NCBI GenBank assembly: GCA_027487905.1
Contig: JAIYCR010000098.1
Location: 1 to 64,000 of the forward strand
From: Rubrivivax sp.
GTDB taxonomy: Bacteria; Pseudomonadota; Gammaproteobacteria; Burkholderiales; Burkholderiaceae_C
Direction: 5' to 3'
Length of the DNA stretch: 64,000 nucleotides
In this document: one piece after another, positions 2,513 through 11,457 of the stretch
How the letters are laid out: every line of letters starts with the position of its first letter
Numbering within the stretch: position 1 is the stretch's first letter
Notes under the pieces: model-generated
What the model was told of the DNA's origin: nothing
Databases searched by the model: none
The model's input: the letters and a program-made list of their open reading frames with translations, nothing else
Position numbers and translations under genes: made by a program

Positions 2513-4003
2513 TCAGGGCCGCATGAAACCCAGGTCGCGTCCCGCGCCGAAGTTGCCGAGGTTGGGGAACACCTCGTTCAGCCCGGTCTCGGACACGCCG
2601 AACCAGCGGCCCAGCGTGGCACCGATCTGGTCCACCGCGGTCACCGGCAGGAAGCTGCCCGAGCCCACCTCATCGTCCTGGTTCAGCCCGAGCGTGGGGA
2701 AGCGGCCCACCACCTCGCGGCCGCGCACCGCGCCGCCCATGACGAAGTGGTGCGAGCCCCAGCCGTGGTCGGTGCCATCGCCGTTGCTGGTGAAGGTGCG
2801 CCCGAAGTCGGACGCGGTGAACAGCGTCACCTGGTCGCGCACCCCCAGCGTGCCCAGCGTGGTGTCGAAATAGCCCAGCGCGTGCGACAGCCGGGCCATC
2901 AGGTCGGCATGCACCCGGTTCTGGTTGTCGTGGGTGTCGAAGCCGCCCATGCTGACGAAGAACACCTGGCGCCGGGTGCCCAGCGAGCTGCGCGCACCGA
3001 TGATGCGCGCCACCGTCTGCAGCTGCTGGGCGAGGTTGTTGTTGGAAAGCGCCCGGGTCGAGGGCAGCGTGACCTGGGTGGGCGCGGTCACGGCGGAGGC
3101 GGTGAAGGCCCTCTGGAAGTTGGCCTGCGCGTCTATGGAGCGCTTGGTGATGGCCGCGTACTCGCGGGCATAGAGGTTGTTGTAGTCGGCAGCGGTGATG
3201 AGCGTGCTCAGCTGGCCGGATGCCGCCGTCGAGCCGAACAGCGTGCCGGTGACGCTGCCCACCGCCACCGCGCCGCTGCCGCTGACCTGGTACTGGAACA
3301 CGTCGCGGCCGGACAGGAAGACGGCATTGCCGGCGGTGGAGATGTTGGTGAACAGCGCATTGCCCGAGTTGCCGGCGGCCATCAGGTCGCCCAGGCGGCC
3401 GCCCCAGCCGATGCGTGCGCCTTCCGGGGACAGCGCCTGCCAGGTGGACTGCTGGTCGTTGTGCGAGAAGAGCTTGGCCGGGCGGGGCGCGGTGTTGCCG
3501 CGGTACTGCGCCTTGGTCAGCGGCTGCACCAGCGGGCCGGCGTTGGCCAGGATGGCCAGGCGCTGGTCGACGTTGAAGAGCCGCTGCGCCTCGGGCATGG
3601 ACGGGTGCAGCGCAAAGCCGCGGGCGCTGTTGCCCGGCGTCAGCGTGTAGGCGGGGGTGAGCCCGAGCACGCCGCCCAGTGCGGCCGGCGTGGCCATGGC
3701 GGCGTTGGGGTCGGGCGCGGCGCCCACCGGGCGCAGCGCGATCGGGTCGGGGGCCTGGTTGCGCACCGTGGTGTAGGTGTTCCACGACGCGGTGTCGGTG
3801 GGCAGCACCATGTTGGCCGAGTCGTTGCCGCCGAACAGGAACAGGCAGACGATGGCCTTGTAGTCGTTGGGTGTCGTCTGCGCGGCGGCCGTGCCCAGCG
3901 TGGCCAGGTTCAGCGCGAAGGGCGCGCCGGCGGTGCCGACGCTGCCGCCGATCAGCGAGGCGGTGCGCAGGAAGGCGCGGCGGGTGGCGGGGCGGTGGTT
4001 CAT
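2513..4003 (-). CDS. DUF1501 family exported protein
   Basis: A 496-residue protein of the DUF1501 family (related to the sulfatase/alkaline phosphatase fold). It begins with a Tat signal: T-R-R-A-F-L-R-T-A followed by a hydrophobic run and an A-A-A-Q cleavage region near residue 41. The metal-site-like segment FLFGGNDSANM follows, with MGGFDTHDNQ in the middle and DFGRTFTSNGDGTDHGWGSHHF toward the C-terminus, all typical of the family. It sits 70 bp downstream of a DUF1800 gene; this pairing is conserved in many bacteria, but its substrate and role are unknown. An AGGA precedes the ATG. Confidence 0.88.
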   Translation of the reverse strand: MNHRPATRRAFLRTASLIGGSVGTAGAPFALNLATLGTAAAQTTPNDYKAIVCLFLFGGNDSANMVLPTDTASWNTYTTVRNQAPDPIALRPVGAAPDPNAAMATPAALGGVLGLTPAYTLTPGNSARGFALHPSMPEAQRLFNVDQRLAILANAGPLVQPLTKAQYRGNTAPRPAKLFSHNDQQSTWQALSPEGARIGWGGRLGDLMAAGNSGNALFTNISTAGNAVFLSGRDVFQYQVSGSGAVAVGSVTGTLFGSTAASGQLSTLITAADYNNLYAREYAAITKRSIDAQANFQRAFTASAVTAPTQVTLPSTRALSNNNLAQQLQTVARIIGARSSLGTRRQVFFVSMGGFDTHDNQNRVHADLMARLSHALGYFDTTLGTLGVRDQVTLFTASDFGRTFTSNGDGTDHGWGSHHFVMGGAVRGREVVGRFPTLGLNQDDEVGSGSFLPVTAVDQIGATLGRWFGVSETGLNEVFPNLGNFGAGRDLGFMRP

Positions 4004-4073
4004 GGGGCGGTCCTGGGCAATGACGAGGGTCGGGCGGCTCGGGCGGCTGCGGCTCGGGGTGTGGCCGCCGGGC

Positions 4074-5894
4074 TCAGGGCTGCGCCAGGTAGTCGGGCGA
4101 GGCCATCGTCAGGAAGATGGCGATCGAGGCCCGGTTGCGCCGGGCGGCATCGATGGCCGCCTGGTTGGTCACCGTGCCGGCGCTGTTGACCGTGGGCGCC
4201 GGAATGGTCACGCTGATGAGGGCGGCCATCAGCGCCGCGCGCTGCCGGTCGGTCATGCGTCCGCCCATCAGCAGCAGGTTCATCCGCTCGATGAGCTCGG
4301 TCGGGTTTCCCGCGCTGGGCTTGTCGGCCAGCGCCATCTCCCGCTCGTAGTTCTGCCGCACGTCGCGGCCGGTGTTCACCGCCACCCAGGTCTGCAGGTA
4401 GTTCAGGTAGCCCGCCACCGACACCTCATGGGCGAGCTGCAGCTCCGGCGACACCAGGCCGTTGTTGGCCAGGTCCGTGCGCGGCGGCACGTAGCCGGGG
4501 CGGTAGAAGTTGAAGACCGACGGCGAGCGCATCGGGGTCTGGCCCAGACGCGTGGCGGCGTCGTCGGTGTTGTCGATGCCCGTCCAGTTGCCGCTGGCGC
4601 TCGTCGCGTTGAAGGCCCGCATCCAGTGGGCCAGGCGCAGCACCGGCTCGCGCAGCTTGCCCTCGGCATCGGCGGCGGCGGGGCTGCGCGCCTCGGCATC
4701 GAGCAGCACCGCGCGCAGCACGGCCTTCATGTCGCCACGCACGCCCGCGCCGTTGTCGGCGAAGGCAGCGGCCACCCGGCCCACATAGGCCGGACTGGGG
4801 TTGCTCTTGACCAGGCGCTGGATCAGCTGCCGGCCGATGAAGGGGCCCACGTTGGGGTGGTTGAACAGCGTGTCCAGCGCGATCTTCAGGCTGGCCCGGG
4901 GGTCGGCGGTGGTCTGGGCGGGAATGGTCGTGCCCAGGAAGCGCTTTTCCAGCGTCGAGTGGAAGGCCGGGTAGGCGCTCATCGGCTGCCAGTCGCGGTC
5001 AGGGTGGGGCGCGCCGCCCTGGAAACGGGTGGTGGTGCGGTCGGCCTCGTTGGGGCCGGCATACCAGCTGAAGCCGGTGAACACGCGCGCCAGGCCCTGG
5101 ATGTCCGCGCCGGTGTAGCTCTCCTGGTCCTGGCCGTTGGGGCCGGGCTTCTTGATGCCCTGCGCGTCGAGCTGGTACAGCCCGATGGAGAAGAGCTGCA
5201 TCACCTCGCGGGCGTAGTTCTCGTCGGGCACCCGGCCGGTGGCGGTGTTCTCCTTCTGGTTGCGAAGGTGGGACAGGTACAGGCCCATCATCGGGTGCAG
5301 CGTCACCGCCTCGAGCAGGTCGCGGTAGTTGCCGAAGGCCTGCGCACCCAGCATGTCCAGGTAGCTCGCCACGCCGCGCGGGTACTGCGCCACGTTGCCG
5401 TCGTTGAAGGACACCACGAAGATCTGCGACAGCGCGAAGGCCACCCGCTGGCGCAGCGGGTCCTGCCCGGTCACCGCCTGCTTCCAGAAGCTTTCCAGCA
5501 GGTGCCCCTGGCTGGACATGCTGCCCACCGGCAGCTCGCCCAGGCGCTGGTCCATGTAGGCGCGGTGCAGCGTCTGGGGCGCTGCGAACTGCGCGTTGAT
5601 CCAGTCGCCGTAGGTCTGGGCGGACAGCGCCGCGATCGAGGCCTCGGTGGGTCCGAAGGTGGCCTGCGCCAGAAAGCGCGAGGCGTCCGCGGCACTGGGC
5701 TGAACCACGGCCGCGGCGGGCCCTTCGGCCGAAGGCGCACCGGCACCGCCGCAGGCGGCCAGCAGCACGGCAGCCGCCAGCGGGGCGAGCCAGCCCAGGC
5801 GCCGAGGTGTGGCGTCGGGGGCGGCGGCCTCAGGGGCGGTCGGCTGCGGCGTCGCGGGGGCTGGGCGGACGGGGCGCTCGAACAGGGCAGGCAT
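4074..5894 (-). CDS. DUF1800 family lipoprotein
   Basis: Long protein of the DUF1800 family. I start it at the ATG at 5894 (606 aa), which has GGAG upstream and places a lipoprotein signal close to the N-terminus: a hydrophobic segment ending L-A-A-C-G-G. The open frame continues upstream to 6104, but that extension has no signal-like character. Family hallmarks include R-F-L-A-Q-A-T-F-G-P-T near residue 70, the N-Y-A-R-E-x-M-Q-L-F-S-I-G-L-Y block, and the L-x-H-P-N-x-x-x-F-I-G-x-x-L-I region. It is exported and probably acts with the downstream DUF1501 protein. Biochemical function is unknown. Confidence 0.88.
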   Translation of the reverse strand: MPALFERPVRPAPATPQPTAPEAAAPDATPRRLGWLAPLAAAVLLAACGGAGAPSAEGPAAAVVQPSAADASRFLAQATFGPTEASIAALSAQTYGDWINAQFAAPQTLHRAYMDQRLGELPVGSMSSQGHLLESFWKQAVTGQDPLRQRVAFALSQIFVVSFNDGNVAQYPRGVASYLDMLGAQAFGNYRDLLEAVTLHPMMGLYLSHLRNQKENTATGRVPDENYAREVMQLFSIGLYQLDAQGIKKPGPNGQDQESYTGADIQGLARVFTGFSWYAGPNEADRTTTRFQGGAPHPDRDWQPMSAYPAFHSTLEKRFLGTTIPAQTTADPRASLKIALDTLFNHPNVGPFIGRQLIQRLVKSNPSPAYVGRVAAAFADNGAGVRGDMKAVLRAVLLDAEARSPAAADAEGKLREPVLRLAHWMRAFNATSASGNWTGIDNTDDAATRLGQTPMRSPSVFNFYRPGYVPPRTDLANNGLVSPELQLAHEVSVAGYLNYLQTWVAVNTGRDVRQNYEREMALADKPSAGNPTELIERMNLLLMGGRMTDRQRAALMAALISVTIPAPTVNSAGTVTNQAAIDAARRNRASIAIFLTMASPDYLAQP

Positions 5895-6066
5895 GGCGGA
5901 CTCCGGTGGGGCGGCGCGCAGTGTGCTGTCGGCGCAGCGGGCGCCGTTGCCAAACGCGTCACGGATCGTGGGATGCTGACAGGGCGTTACGACCCGCCGG
6001 TGAACAAATGAAACAGCGCGGGGAGCCGCCCTCAAGGCCGCGTGCCGACGGCCGATAACGCCGCGC

Positions 6067-8877
<2,811 letters not shown>

Positions 8878-8964
8878 CGGCAGCAGCACTCGGTCGCAGG
8901 GTTCGACGACCCGTGGCCACCGGGCTTGCCCAGGCTCACCACGGGCCCGCAGGGGCGGGTCGGG

Positions 8965-9076
8965 TGAGCGCCGTTCTCGCCAGCGATGCGGCGGGGCCGG
9001 GGGCCTCGTGCATCGCGGGACATCCCGAGCCTGGCGGTGGCCTCGCGGCTCGACCGTCGCAGCGCTCCTCGGGAAG
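8965..9076 (-). ncRNA. S-adenosylhomocysteine (SAH) riboswitch
   Basis: On the minus strand this leader shows the SAH riboswitch layout. TCCCGAG (9074-9068) pairs with CTCGGGA (9029-9023) as P1. Between them are the conserved GGAGCGCTGCGAC and GCCAGGCTCGG segments. GCGATG/CATCGC arms (about 9016-9011 and 8989-8984) form a downstream helix. The final AACGGCGCTC puts GCGCTC (about 8971-8966) in position for a pseudoknot with GAGCGC near 9068-9063. The leader ends about 88 bases before metH. In this class, SAH binding raises expression of SAH-recycling genes such as ahcY and metH. Recognition is by primary-sequence consensus and pairing that I checked by hand. Confidence 0.88.
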
Positions 9077-9082
9077 ACCCGG

Positions 9083-9088
9083 ATTCTA
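9083..9088 (-). promoter_or_regulatory. Candidate -10 element for metH
   Basis: TAGAAT on the minus strand lies where it would start a transcript about 7 bases downstream, at about 9076, the first base of the SAH riboswitch P1 helix. No convincing -35 box is seen. The fit of spacing to the riboswitch 5' end is the main support. Confidence 0.45.
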
Positions 9089-9204
9089 GGAGCGGCGGCG
9101 GCCCGAAACACAGTGGTCGGGCCCGCGACTTGCCAAATCGTCGGTCTGCCGACGGTGACGGCATCATCGACGGGCCGGCACCCACCCCTTCCGATCCCTC
9201 TCGC

Positions 9205-9894
9205 ATGTCCGCCTTGCCACCGCCCCTGCCACCGCCCTTGCCGCCGCACTTGCCGCCTCGCCAGCCTCAGCGGGCCGCCTGCACCCGCCGCCGCTTCCTG
9301 AGCCTGGGTGGCGCGGCGTCGGCCGGGTCGGCCGCGGCGCTGTTCGGCCTGACGGGCCTGAGCGGCTGCGCCAGCCGCCCGCCGGTGCCGGTTCCGCTGC
9401 CGCCCGCGGCCTCCTCGGTGCCCGGCTCGGCCGGCGGGCCCGCGCGTGGCGGCGGCGACGGTGCCGCAGCCTTCGTCTGGTCGCGAGACGCCGAGTCGGC
9501 CTTCACCGCCTTCAGCCGCTACCTGGGCCCCGGCCCGCTGGTGCGGCGCAGCGGCGACGACCGCGTCTGGCTGGTGCTGCCGGGCGAGAACCTCTATCCC
9601 GACGGCCGTGCGGCGCTCGCGCCCGCGGCCCGCCGCTGGCTCGATCAGGTGGCCCTGGTGATGCAGGCCTGGCCGGCCAGCGAGGCGCGCCTGGTCGGCC
9701 ACACCGACGCCCGGGGTGCGGCCGCGGCCAACGACGCCCTGTCGCTCGAGCGGGCGCAAAGCGCGCGCGACTGGCTGGTGGCCCGCGGCGTGCCGGCCCG
9801 CAGGCTCAGCCTGGCCGGCCGGGGTTCGCGTGACGCCGGTGCGCCTGGCGGGGACCGGCGGCTGGAGTTGCTGCTGGGCGAGCGAGTGCGCTGA
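9205..9894 (+). CDS. OmpA-like peptidoglycan-binding lipoprotein with Tat-type signal
   Basis: A 229-residue exported protein. After a Pro-rich start, the signal region combines a twin-arginine motif (R-R-R-F-L-S-L) with a lipobox (L-S-G-C-A), so it is probably a Tat-exported lipoprotein. The C-terminal 100 residues form an OmpA/MotB-like domain: [34 protein letters not shown] and GRGSRD are the usual peptidoglycan-contact blocks. It would tie the outer membrane to the cell wall. The gene sits on the plus strand between the two metH parts, which are on the minus strand, and is divergent from the riboswitch-controlled metH leader. Confidence 0.82.
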
Positions 9895-9933
9895 GCCGGC
9901 GCGGGCGGGTCCGGTGCCCGACTGGCTTCAGGC

Positions 9934-11049
<1,116 letters not shown>

Positions 11050-11064
11050 CGCCCGATTCTAGGA

Positions 11065-11457
11065 ATGACCCACCTTCTCCCCCTGCAGGCCTGGGACTGG
11101 CTGCAATCCAGGCCCGACGCGGTGTTCATCGACATCCGCATGGAGATCGAGCACCTGTACGTCGGCCATCCCCCCGGCGTGGTGCACCTGGCCTGGTACG
11201 AATACCCGGAGCTCACGCCTGATGCGGCGGCCTTCGTGGCCGCGGTGGAGCGCGAGGCCGGTGGCCGCGAGCGGCCGGTGCTGCTGATCTGCCGCTCGGG
11301 CAATCGCACTGTGCATGCGGGCCAGGCCCTGGAGGAGGCGGGTTTCCGGGAGGTTGCCCACGTCGTCCACGGCTTCGAGGGTGACCTGGACGAGCGGGGT
11401 CACCGTAGCCAGCTCAACGGCTGGCGCTTCGATCGCCTGCCCTGGGGGCAGCTGTAG
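11065..11457 (+). CDS. Rhodanese-like domain protein
   Basis: A 130-residue single-domain rhodanese. The active-site loop is L-L-I-C-R-S-G-N-R-T, with the persulfide-carrying Cys followed by R-S-G-x-R, as in sulfurtransferases; the CH2A-like start DAVFIDIRMEIE and the end HGFEGDLDE...LNGW are typical of a family common in Burkholderiales. It likely moves sulfane sulfur in the cytoplasm, but the substrate is unknown. It starts 15 bp from metH on the opposite strand, and its last 44 bp overlap the 3' end of the convergent GGDEF-EAL gene. Confidence 0.85.
   Translation: MTHLLPLQAWDWLQSRPDAVFIDIRMEIEHLYVGHPPGVVHLAWYEYPELTPDAAAFVAAVEREAGGRERPVLLICRSGNRTVHAGQALEEAGFREVAHVVHGFEGDLDERGHRSQLNGWRFDRLPWGQL

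Follow-up and report, generated by a model that had tools for sequence, protein, structure and literature searches.

An SAH riboswitch precedes metH2, the larger part of a split methionine synthase, in Rubrivivax sp.

Introduction

In a 64,000-nucleotide stretch of Rubrivivax sp. DNA (the window), a riboswitch for S-adenosylhomocysteine (SAH) was predicted in front of one half of a divided metH, which raises the question of which gene is placed under this sensor and by which route a signal from the aptamer could reach the start codon. SAH riboswitches bind SAH and reject SAM, and the family has a pseudoknot. The class was reportedly introduced by Wang et al. in 2008 and is held in Rfam as RF01057, and in the family's original description SAH binding is said to raise expression.

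A pseudoknotted helix has been reported for RF01057 (PMC2891591, in excerpt). In the excerpted text of Leyn et al. (2014; PMC4239095), SAH riboswitches are reported from both beta- and gamma-proteobacteria; their core targets are ahcY and metF, and in Comamonadaceae MetH is added as a taxon-specific target. The original prediction was right to name a class known in betaproteobacteria, and the metH target, too, is in print. Moreover, excerpts of the literature describe the B12-dependent methionine synthase of Phaeobacter inhibens as split in three genes (PMC5764234), and list metH1 and metH2 in Xanthomonas (PMC4239095).

Results

The aptamer and its target gene

A cmscan search of the window matched RF01057 at 9076..8959 on the minus strand over model positions 1-78, i.e., at full length, with 43.4 bits against a gathering threshold of 37 and an E-value of 9.9e-5 (computed for 64 kb and 4227 Rfam families), and the match was recovered in a repeat search and in a search of the organism's own genome. 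The original prediction had placed an SAH riboswitch at 8965-9076 without giving a strand, and had named the lack of a significant covariance-model (CM) score as its refutation; the coordinates fit, and the score lies above the curated cut-off. No second gathering-level Rfam match was found in the 64-kb window, and a permissive Rfam search of 8600-11400 (E ≤ 1) returned nothing beyond the RF01057 match.

In the CM alignment the core positions agree with the RF01057 consensus, and the arrangement that defines the family, P1 and P2 with the conserved core GAGGAGCGCUGC...CCAGGCUCGG, is present on the minus strand. According to this alignment and a pair check, the 5' strand of P1 (9074..9069) forms six standard pairs with its 3' strand (9028..9023), the seventh, outermost pair of the model being a U-U mismatch, while P2 joins CGGUCG (9056..9051) to CCACCG (9040..9035) by five standard pairs out of six, with one C-C mismatch. 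Within the conserved core, the pseudoknot 5' strand GAGCGC (9067..9062) is perfectly complementary over 6 bp to GCGCUC (8971..8966), which is part of the pseudoknot-forming AACGGCGCTC (8975..8966); the P1 pairing, core and pseudoknot strand that had been noticed in the leader were therefore all recovered. The interval between P1 and the pseudoknot 3' strand holds an extra hairpin (8983..9016, minus strand; GCGAUGC 9016..9010 / GCAUCGC 8989..8983), most of which the Rfam model lacks (a 35-nt insertion at this place) and whose stem was present in both folds of the window, free and aptamer-forced.

The gene that follows, metH2 (8877..6067, minus strand), encodes 936 aa with the Pfam domains Pterin_bind, B12-binding_2, B12-binding and Met_synt_B12, scores 1155 bits against NCBIfam TIGR02082, and represents the larger part of a B12-dependent methionine synthase. 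The aptamer ends 81 nt before its ATG, which places it in the 5' leader of a SAM-cycle gene; GTG 8889 and ATG 8790 are alternative in-frame starts. The homocysteine-binding part, metH1 (11049..9934, minus strand), encodes 371 aa with an S-methyl_trans domain (PF02574), and cmscan of the 64 kb found no gathering-level SAH riboswitch ahead of it. The pterin-, B12- and activation-domain gene is thus indeed the larger metH half to which control had been ascribed. Since an OmpA-family lipoprotein-like gene on the opposite strand (9205..9894, plus strand; PF00691) separates metH1 from metH2, the latter is probably a transcription unit of its own that needs its own promoter. The OmpA-family gene was also found on the opposite strand directly upstream of the metH2 leader in two related loci (L065 in genome G001 and L068 in G006); tblastn matched it neither in the remaining 24 metH2 loci (approximately 1.5 kb upstream) nor in the 80 named loci introduced below. 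Downstream of metH2, two adjoining minus-strand genes (2513-6104) match DUF1501 and DUF1800.

Distribution in related genomes

The genome carries two SAH riboswitches, the metH2 copy of 43.4 bits and a second copy of 63.9 bits that precedes a gene matching S-adenosylhomocysteine hydrolase (AdoHcyase; ahcY). RF01057 was detected in at least 57 of 60 related genomes, own included (search filters lose some weak matches), and in none of 14 control genomes. Among the 83 copies in the 60 genomes, assigned by tblastn with the organism's own proteins, 56 stand before ahcY and 27 before metH2. All of the latter belong to the window's family, where they occur in 27 of 36 genomes, own included, and the 24 genomes from other families yielded no riboswitch before metH2. 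Of the nine family genomes that have no metH2 copy, some are incomplete, so that not all nine need lack one. The same-genus genome G001 has a match before metH2 (L065) of 51.6 bits, and seven further family copies have scores of 37-43.5 bits. SAH binding and control of metH2 expression are predicted from family membership and from this conserved position.

In one genome (G045:C93:83462-83683; L022 and L071) two tandem SAH riboswitches, 62 nt apart, precede a single ahcY; behind the first come an 11-bp perfect anti-pseudoknot match and a T-rich stretch, possibly a terminator, and behind the second a Shine-Dalgarno sequence.

The comparison was extended to 80 named loci, the best 80 among the matches listed in a metH2 scan, of which 76 had genomes covered by the Rfam searches. 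Of these 76, 49 have a match in the 400 nt ahead of metH2, all above the cut-off except L125 (32.7 bits), and 27 have none; the sequence of one of the 27, L102, begins at metH2 and allows no judgement. In 17 of the 27, metH1 stands directly in front of metH2 (63-203 nt); these are Burkholderia, Paraburkholderia, Caballeronia, Cupriavidus, Pandoraea, Polynucleobacter and one Burkholderiaceae bacterium. Among the 49 loci with a match, metH1 lies within 400 nt in four. The other nine without a match are four Aquabacterium loci and L115, L118, L120, L139 and L145. For L120 a pattern search gave a candidate where Rfam gave no match, and the genome of L145 has an RF01057 match only at 34.3 bits and elsewhere than at metH2. 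In L115 (Comamonadaceae bacterium OS-4), an SAH riboswitch of 46.6 bits (1010-1090) stands before metH1, not directly before metH2. L139 (Acidovorax sp. Leaf191) gave no Rfam match upstream of metH2; by eye, a degenerate-looking riboswitch remnant lies just upstream of the gene, with the GAGTGAGCC stretch before the ATG retained.

In a metH2 tree of 106 rows (quick method, midpoint root), the 77 riboswitch-labelled rows fall in one 86-row group together with nine rows without a riboswitch (support 87, not starred). The window sits among 26 rows that form a group (support 84, not starred); those with a family name are labelled Sphaerotilaceae, except for one Burkholderiaceae. Aquabacterium falls within the same group. 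Rfam found no SAH riboswitch before metH2 in its four loci (L094, L097, L103 and L150), and all four have TAAAAT 6-7 nt before an ATG; this looks like a leaderless metH2 mRNA, left by deletion of the whole riboswitch leader.

Promoter

A -10-like box, TAGAAT (9088..9083, minus strand), ends 6 nt ahead of the first aptamer base, in agreement with the box that had been placed at the start of the leader. Its position is conserved: a TANNNT hexamer precedes the core anchor by 15-21 nt in 27/27 metH2 and 46/56 ahcY leaders, against 0-2 occurrences per offset at the other scanned offsets over all 83 leaders. Inspection by eye revealed no convincing -35 box upstream of TAGAAT. On the basis of the -10 box, the predicted transcription start coincides with the first aptamer base or slightly precedes it.

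Anti-pseudoknot pairing in metH2 leaders

Downstream of the pseudoknot strand GCUCACC, 24 of the 27 metH2 leaders contain GGTGAG, which in 16 begins 8-13 nt before the start codon, i.e., at the Shine-Dalgarno position, and in two more leaders (L061 and L032) a similar element is located at the start codon. The remaining nine lack a GGTGAG-like element at that place; eight of these have GGTGAG 32-63 nt upstream, and the ninth, L065, the window's nearest relative and of the same genus, has no GGTGAG and only a 5-bp match (p 0.638). In L032 (genome G031), the pseudoknot strand and its flank, GCUCAUCGAU, are complementary to AUCGAUGA, which includes the metH2 start codon.

The longest complementary run exceeded dinucleotide shuffles (p < 0.05) in 19/27 metH2 and 20/56 ahcY leaders, and was not significant in 8/27 (window included) and 36/56, respectively. 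In addition, a swap test was performed in which pseudoknot strands were permuted between species (20000 permutations, relatedness being ignored). The observed fit sum was reached in 0/20000 permutations for the 27 metH2 leaders, for 49 pattern-found named metH2 leaders, and for the 22 ahcY leaders of other families, and the result was not significant for the 34 ahcY leaders of the window's family (1459/20000). The pattern-found set differs from the 49 Rfam-matched loci (L120, L123 and L128 in; L096, L099 and L161 out), and overlaps the 27 by at least one leader, L131 having the same metH2 and leader as L023. A compensatory double change, from GCUCACC/GGUGAGC to GCUCACU/AGUGAGC, was found in L115 and L092. 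By these comparisons, the anti-pseudoknot pairing covaries in the metH2 leaders when they are taken as a set, and a choice of the pseudoknot 3' strand between its aptamer partner and the Shine-Dalgarno sequence is a plausible SAH-ON translational switch.

The displaced element in the window

In the window, the anti-pseudoknot element GGUGAGC (8940..8934, minus strand) is complementary to GCUCACC (8969..8963), and this helix has a predicted probability of 0.99 in the free ensemble; taken alone, the 7-bp match is not significant (p 0.060, shuffles). ATG 8877 is 63 nt downstream of the element and has no clear Shine-Dalgarno sequence, so that the complementarity between Shine-Dalgarno and pseudoknot 3' strand seen in other leaders is not found here. 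Instead, the element is located at the base of an accessory hairpin (8908..8947, minus strand) with a 10-bp stem of GGCCCGUGGU (8947..8938) and GCCACGGGUC (8917..8908), for which a shuffle p of 0.024 and a fold z of -2.8 against mononucleotide shuffles were obtained. The hairpin and the anti-pseudoknot helix share bases, and would therefore compete. No T run follows the hairpin, which makes it unlike an intrinsic terminator.

The labels 'direct' and 'displaced' for leaders are our own and follow the distance to the start codon; they were assigned ahead of tree building. For L089, L093, L095 and L138 the GTG after GGTGAG was taken as the start, which makes them direct. In the 20 displaced leaders, GGUGAG lies 22-74 nt upstream of the first in-frame metH2 ATG (GTG in L085), and the stem at GGUGAG has a mean of 7.55 bp compared to 5.37 in shuffled sequences, with 6/20 at p < 0.05 (Fisher p 9e-6, related sequences being counted apart). 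The corresponding values for 54 direct leaders were 4.19 and 4.66, with 0/54 at p < 0.05. Local fold energy provided weak evidence for the accessory hairpin, with z < -2 in only 2/18 displaced leaders (the window and L086) and z > 0 in 4/18. The displaced rows cluster on the metH2 tree (20 rows, 4 changes; 0/500 shuffles as low), and two rows of their tree group, L087 and L032, are direct. A clade-specific hairpin at GGUGAG thus appears fairly well supported by sequence comparison of the displaced leaders.

Constrained folding predicted more opening of the start region in the aptamer-forced state in 60/75 leaders, a result that is biased by forcing strands to be unpaired; L116 was left out, and for six of the 75 the search pattern put P1 in the wrong place, leaving one P1 pair at most (L002, which is the window, and L080, L084, L093, L095 and L138). 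When the window was folded by hand, the opening hardly changed, from 0.26 free to 0.31 aptamer-forced.

Two further pairings were considered for this leader. A relay, in which the 3' arm of the accessory hairpin would sequester the start region, was dropped, with 2/20 leaders exceeding shuffles at p < 0.05. Pairing of the P1 3' strand with the leader (GAGCCTGG, 8 bp, p 0.022 in the window) is probably a chance match and recurs in no other leader among the 19 displaced ones compared; the P1-strand matches in L099 (8 bp) and L043 (7 bp) involve another place and another sequence.

Discussion

The 5' leader of metH2 very probably contains an SAH riboswitch that works as an ON switch through mutual exclusion of the pseudoknot and the pairing with GGUGAGC. 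The aptamer match, the metH2 target, the conserved position and the covariation of the anti-pseudoknot pairing across the metH2 leaders as a set are direct observations; we infer the ligand, the direction of the response and a translational read-out. Transcription would start at the aptamer, and when SAH is scarce the pseudoknot 3' strand, as GCUCACC, would pair with the downstream GGUGAGC and leave the aptamer open. Accumulating SAH would stabilise P1, P2 and the pseudoknot, drawing GCGCUC into the aptamer core and freeing GGUGAGC. As GGUGAG occupies the Shine-Dalgarno position in 16/27 metH2 leaders, its release should permit translation and yield more methionine synthase, which would remove the homocysteine that AhcY makes from SAH. 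For the last step in the window, from GGUGAGC to the start codon, the accessory hairpin, a standby site and Rho access are candidates.

That a G+C-rich intergenic stretch matched the model by chance is a negligible prospect: the region is 76% G+C and the cmscan bias term amounts to 10.2 bits, but the E-value of 9.9e-5 and the recurrence before metH2 in L065 (51.6 bits) and in 27/36 family genomes, against 0/14 controls, speak otherwise, and the conserved position before the same gene already refutes it. A decayed riboswitch, of which the aptamer still scores while control of metH2 is gone, would account for the low score relative to the ahcY copy of the same genome (43.4 against 63.9 bits), the mismatches in P2 and outermost in P1, the displaced anti-pseudoknot element, and the apparent loss of the whole leader in Aquabacterium of the same metH2-tree group. 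Decay is nevertheless improbable, as the core agrees with the consensus, neither the 6-bp pseudoknot nor the -10 spacing is disrupted, the scores of seven other family copies fall in the range of 37-43.5 bits, and long insertions lower the score with the core untouched.

More serious, yet still unlikely in our judgement, is a real aptamer whose read-out in the window's clade is transcriptional, by Rho-dependent or other termination, rather than translational. It is suggested by the separation of the anti-pseudoknot element from the start codon, and is in line with the 9/27 metH2 leaders that have no GGTGAG-like element there, with the tendency of displaced GGTGAG to sit in a hairpin (7.55 against 5.37 bp in 20 leaders), and with the lack of any useful start-region opening predicted in the window; the missing T run after the accessory hairpin, which is unlike an intrinsic terminator, argues against it. 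We put forward, tentatively and as possible rather than probable, that the platform was rebuilt in the window's clade. GGUGAG would there no longer be a Shine-Dalgarno sequence and would form the base of the clade-specific accessory hairpin, SAH choosing between this hairpin and the anti-pseudoknot helix. Aquabacterium would then have lost the entire leader, with the same kind of -10 box coming to lie directly before the ATG, and with a leaderless metH2 that is free of SAH control.

Compared to the known family, the window shares the full-length match above gathering, P1, P2, core and pseudoknot, a SAM-cycle target and beta-proteobacterial relatives, and differs in the 35-nt insertion with its extra hairpin between P1 and the pseudoknot strand, and in the displacement of the anti-pseudoknot element from the start codon. 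The Comamonadaceae regulon, as excerpted from PMC4239095, likewise has this riboswitch family before metH, and each genome there has one or two operons with the riboswitch (ahcY, metH); the excerpt does not give the controlled metH part and the expression platform, and on the metH2 tree the window is placed among Sphaerotilaceae rows. As in the excerpted accounts of Phaeobacter inhibens and Xanthomonas, MetH domains reside in separate genes, whereas in the window there are two genes, one with the homocysteine domain and one with the remaining domains, with the OmpA-like gene on the other strand between them. A riboswitch before metH2 is thus a correct, ordinary and already described arrangement, since MetH is listed as an SAH-riboswitch target in the excerpted PMC4239095, and the modest new angle is in the platform. 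No description of the displaced platform was found in the literature searched, which was partial, and one may be in print in the primary papers on this riboswitch.

The finding adds another betaproteobacterial methyl-cycle gene to the targets of a known metabolite sensor; in the split methionine synthase, it is the corrinoid-bearing part alone that carries the riboswitch here. Moreover, the comparison yields a concrete and testable pairing for the ON switch, that of the pseudoknot strand with the Shine-Dalgarno sequence. Finally, a clade in which this pairing has seemingly moved, and has been lost in one branch, may be useful for studying how a read-out changes while the aptamer stays.
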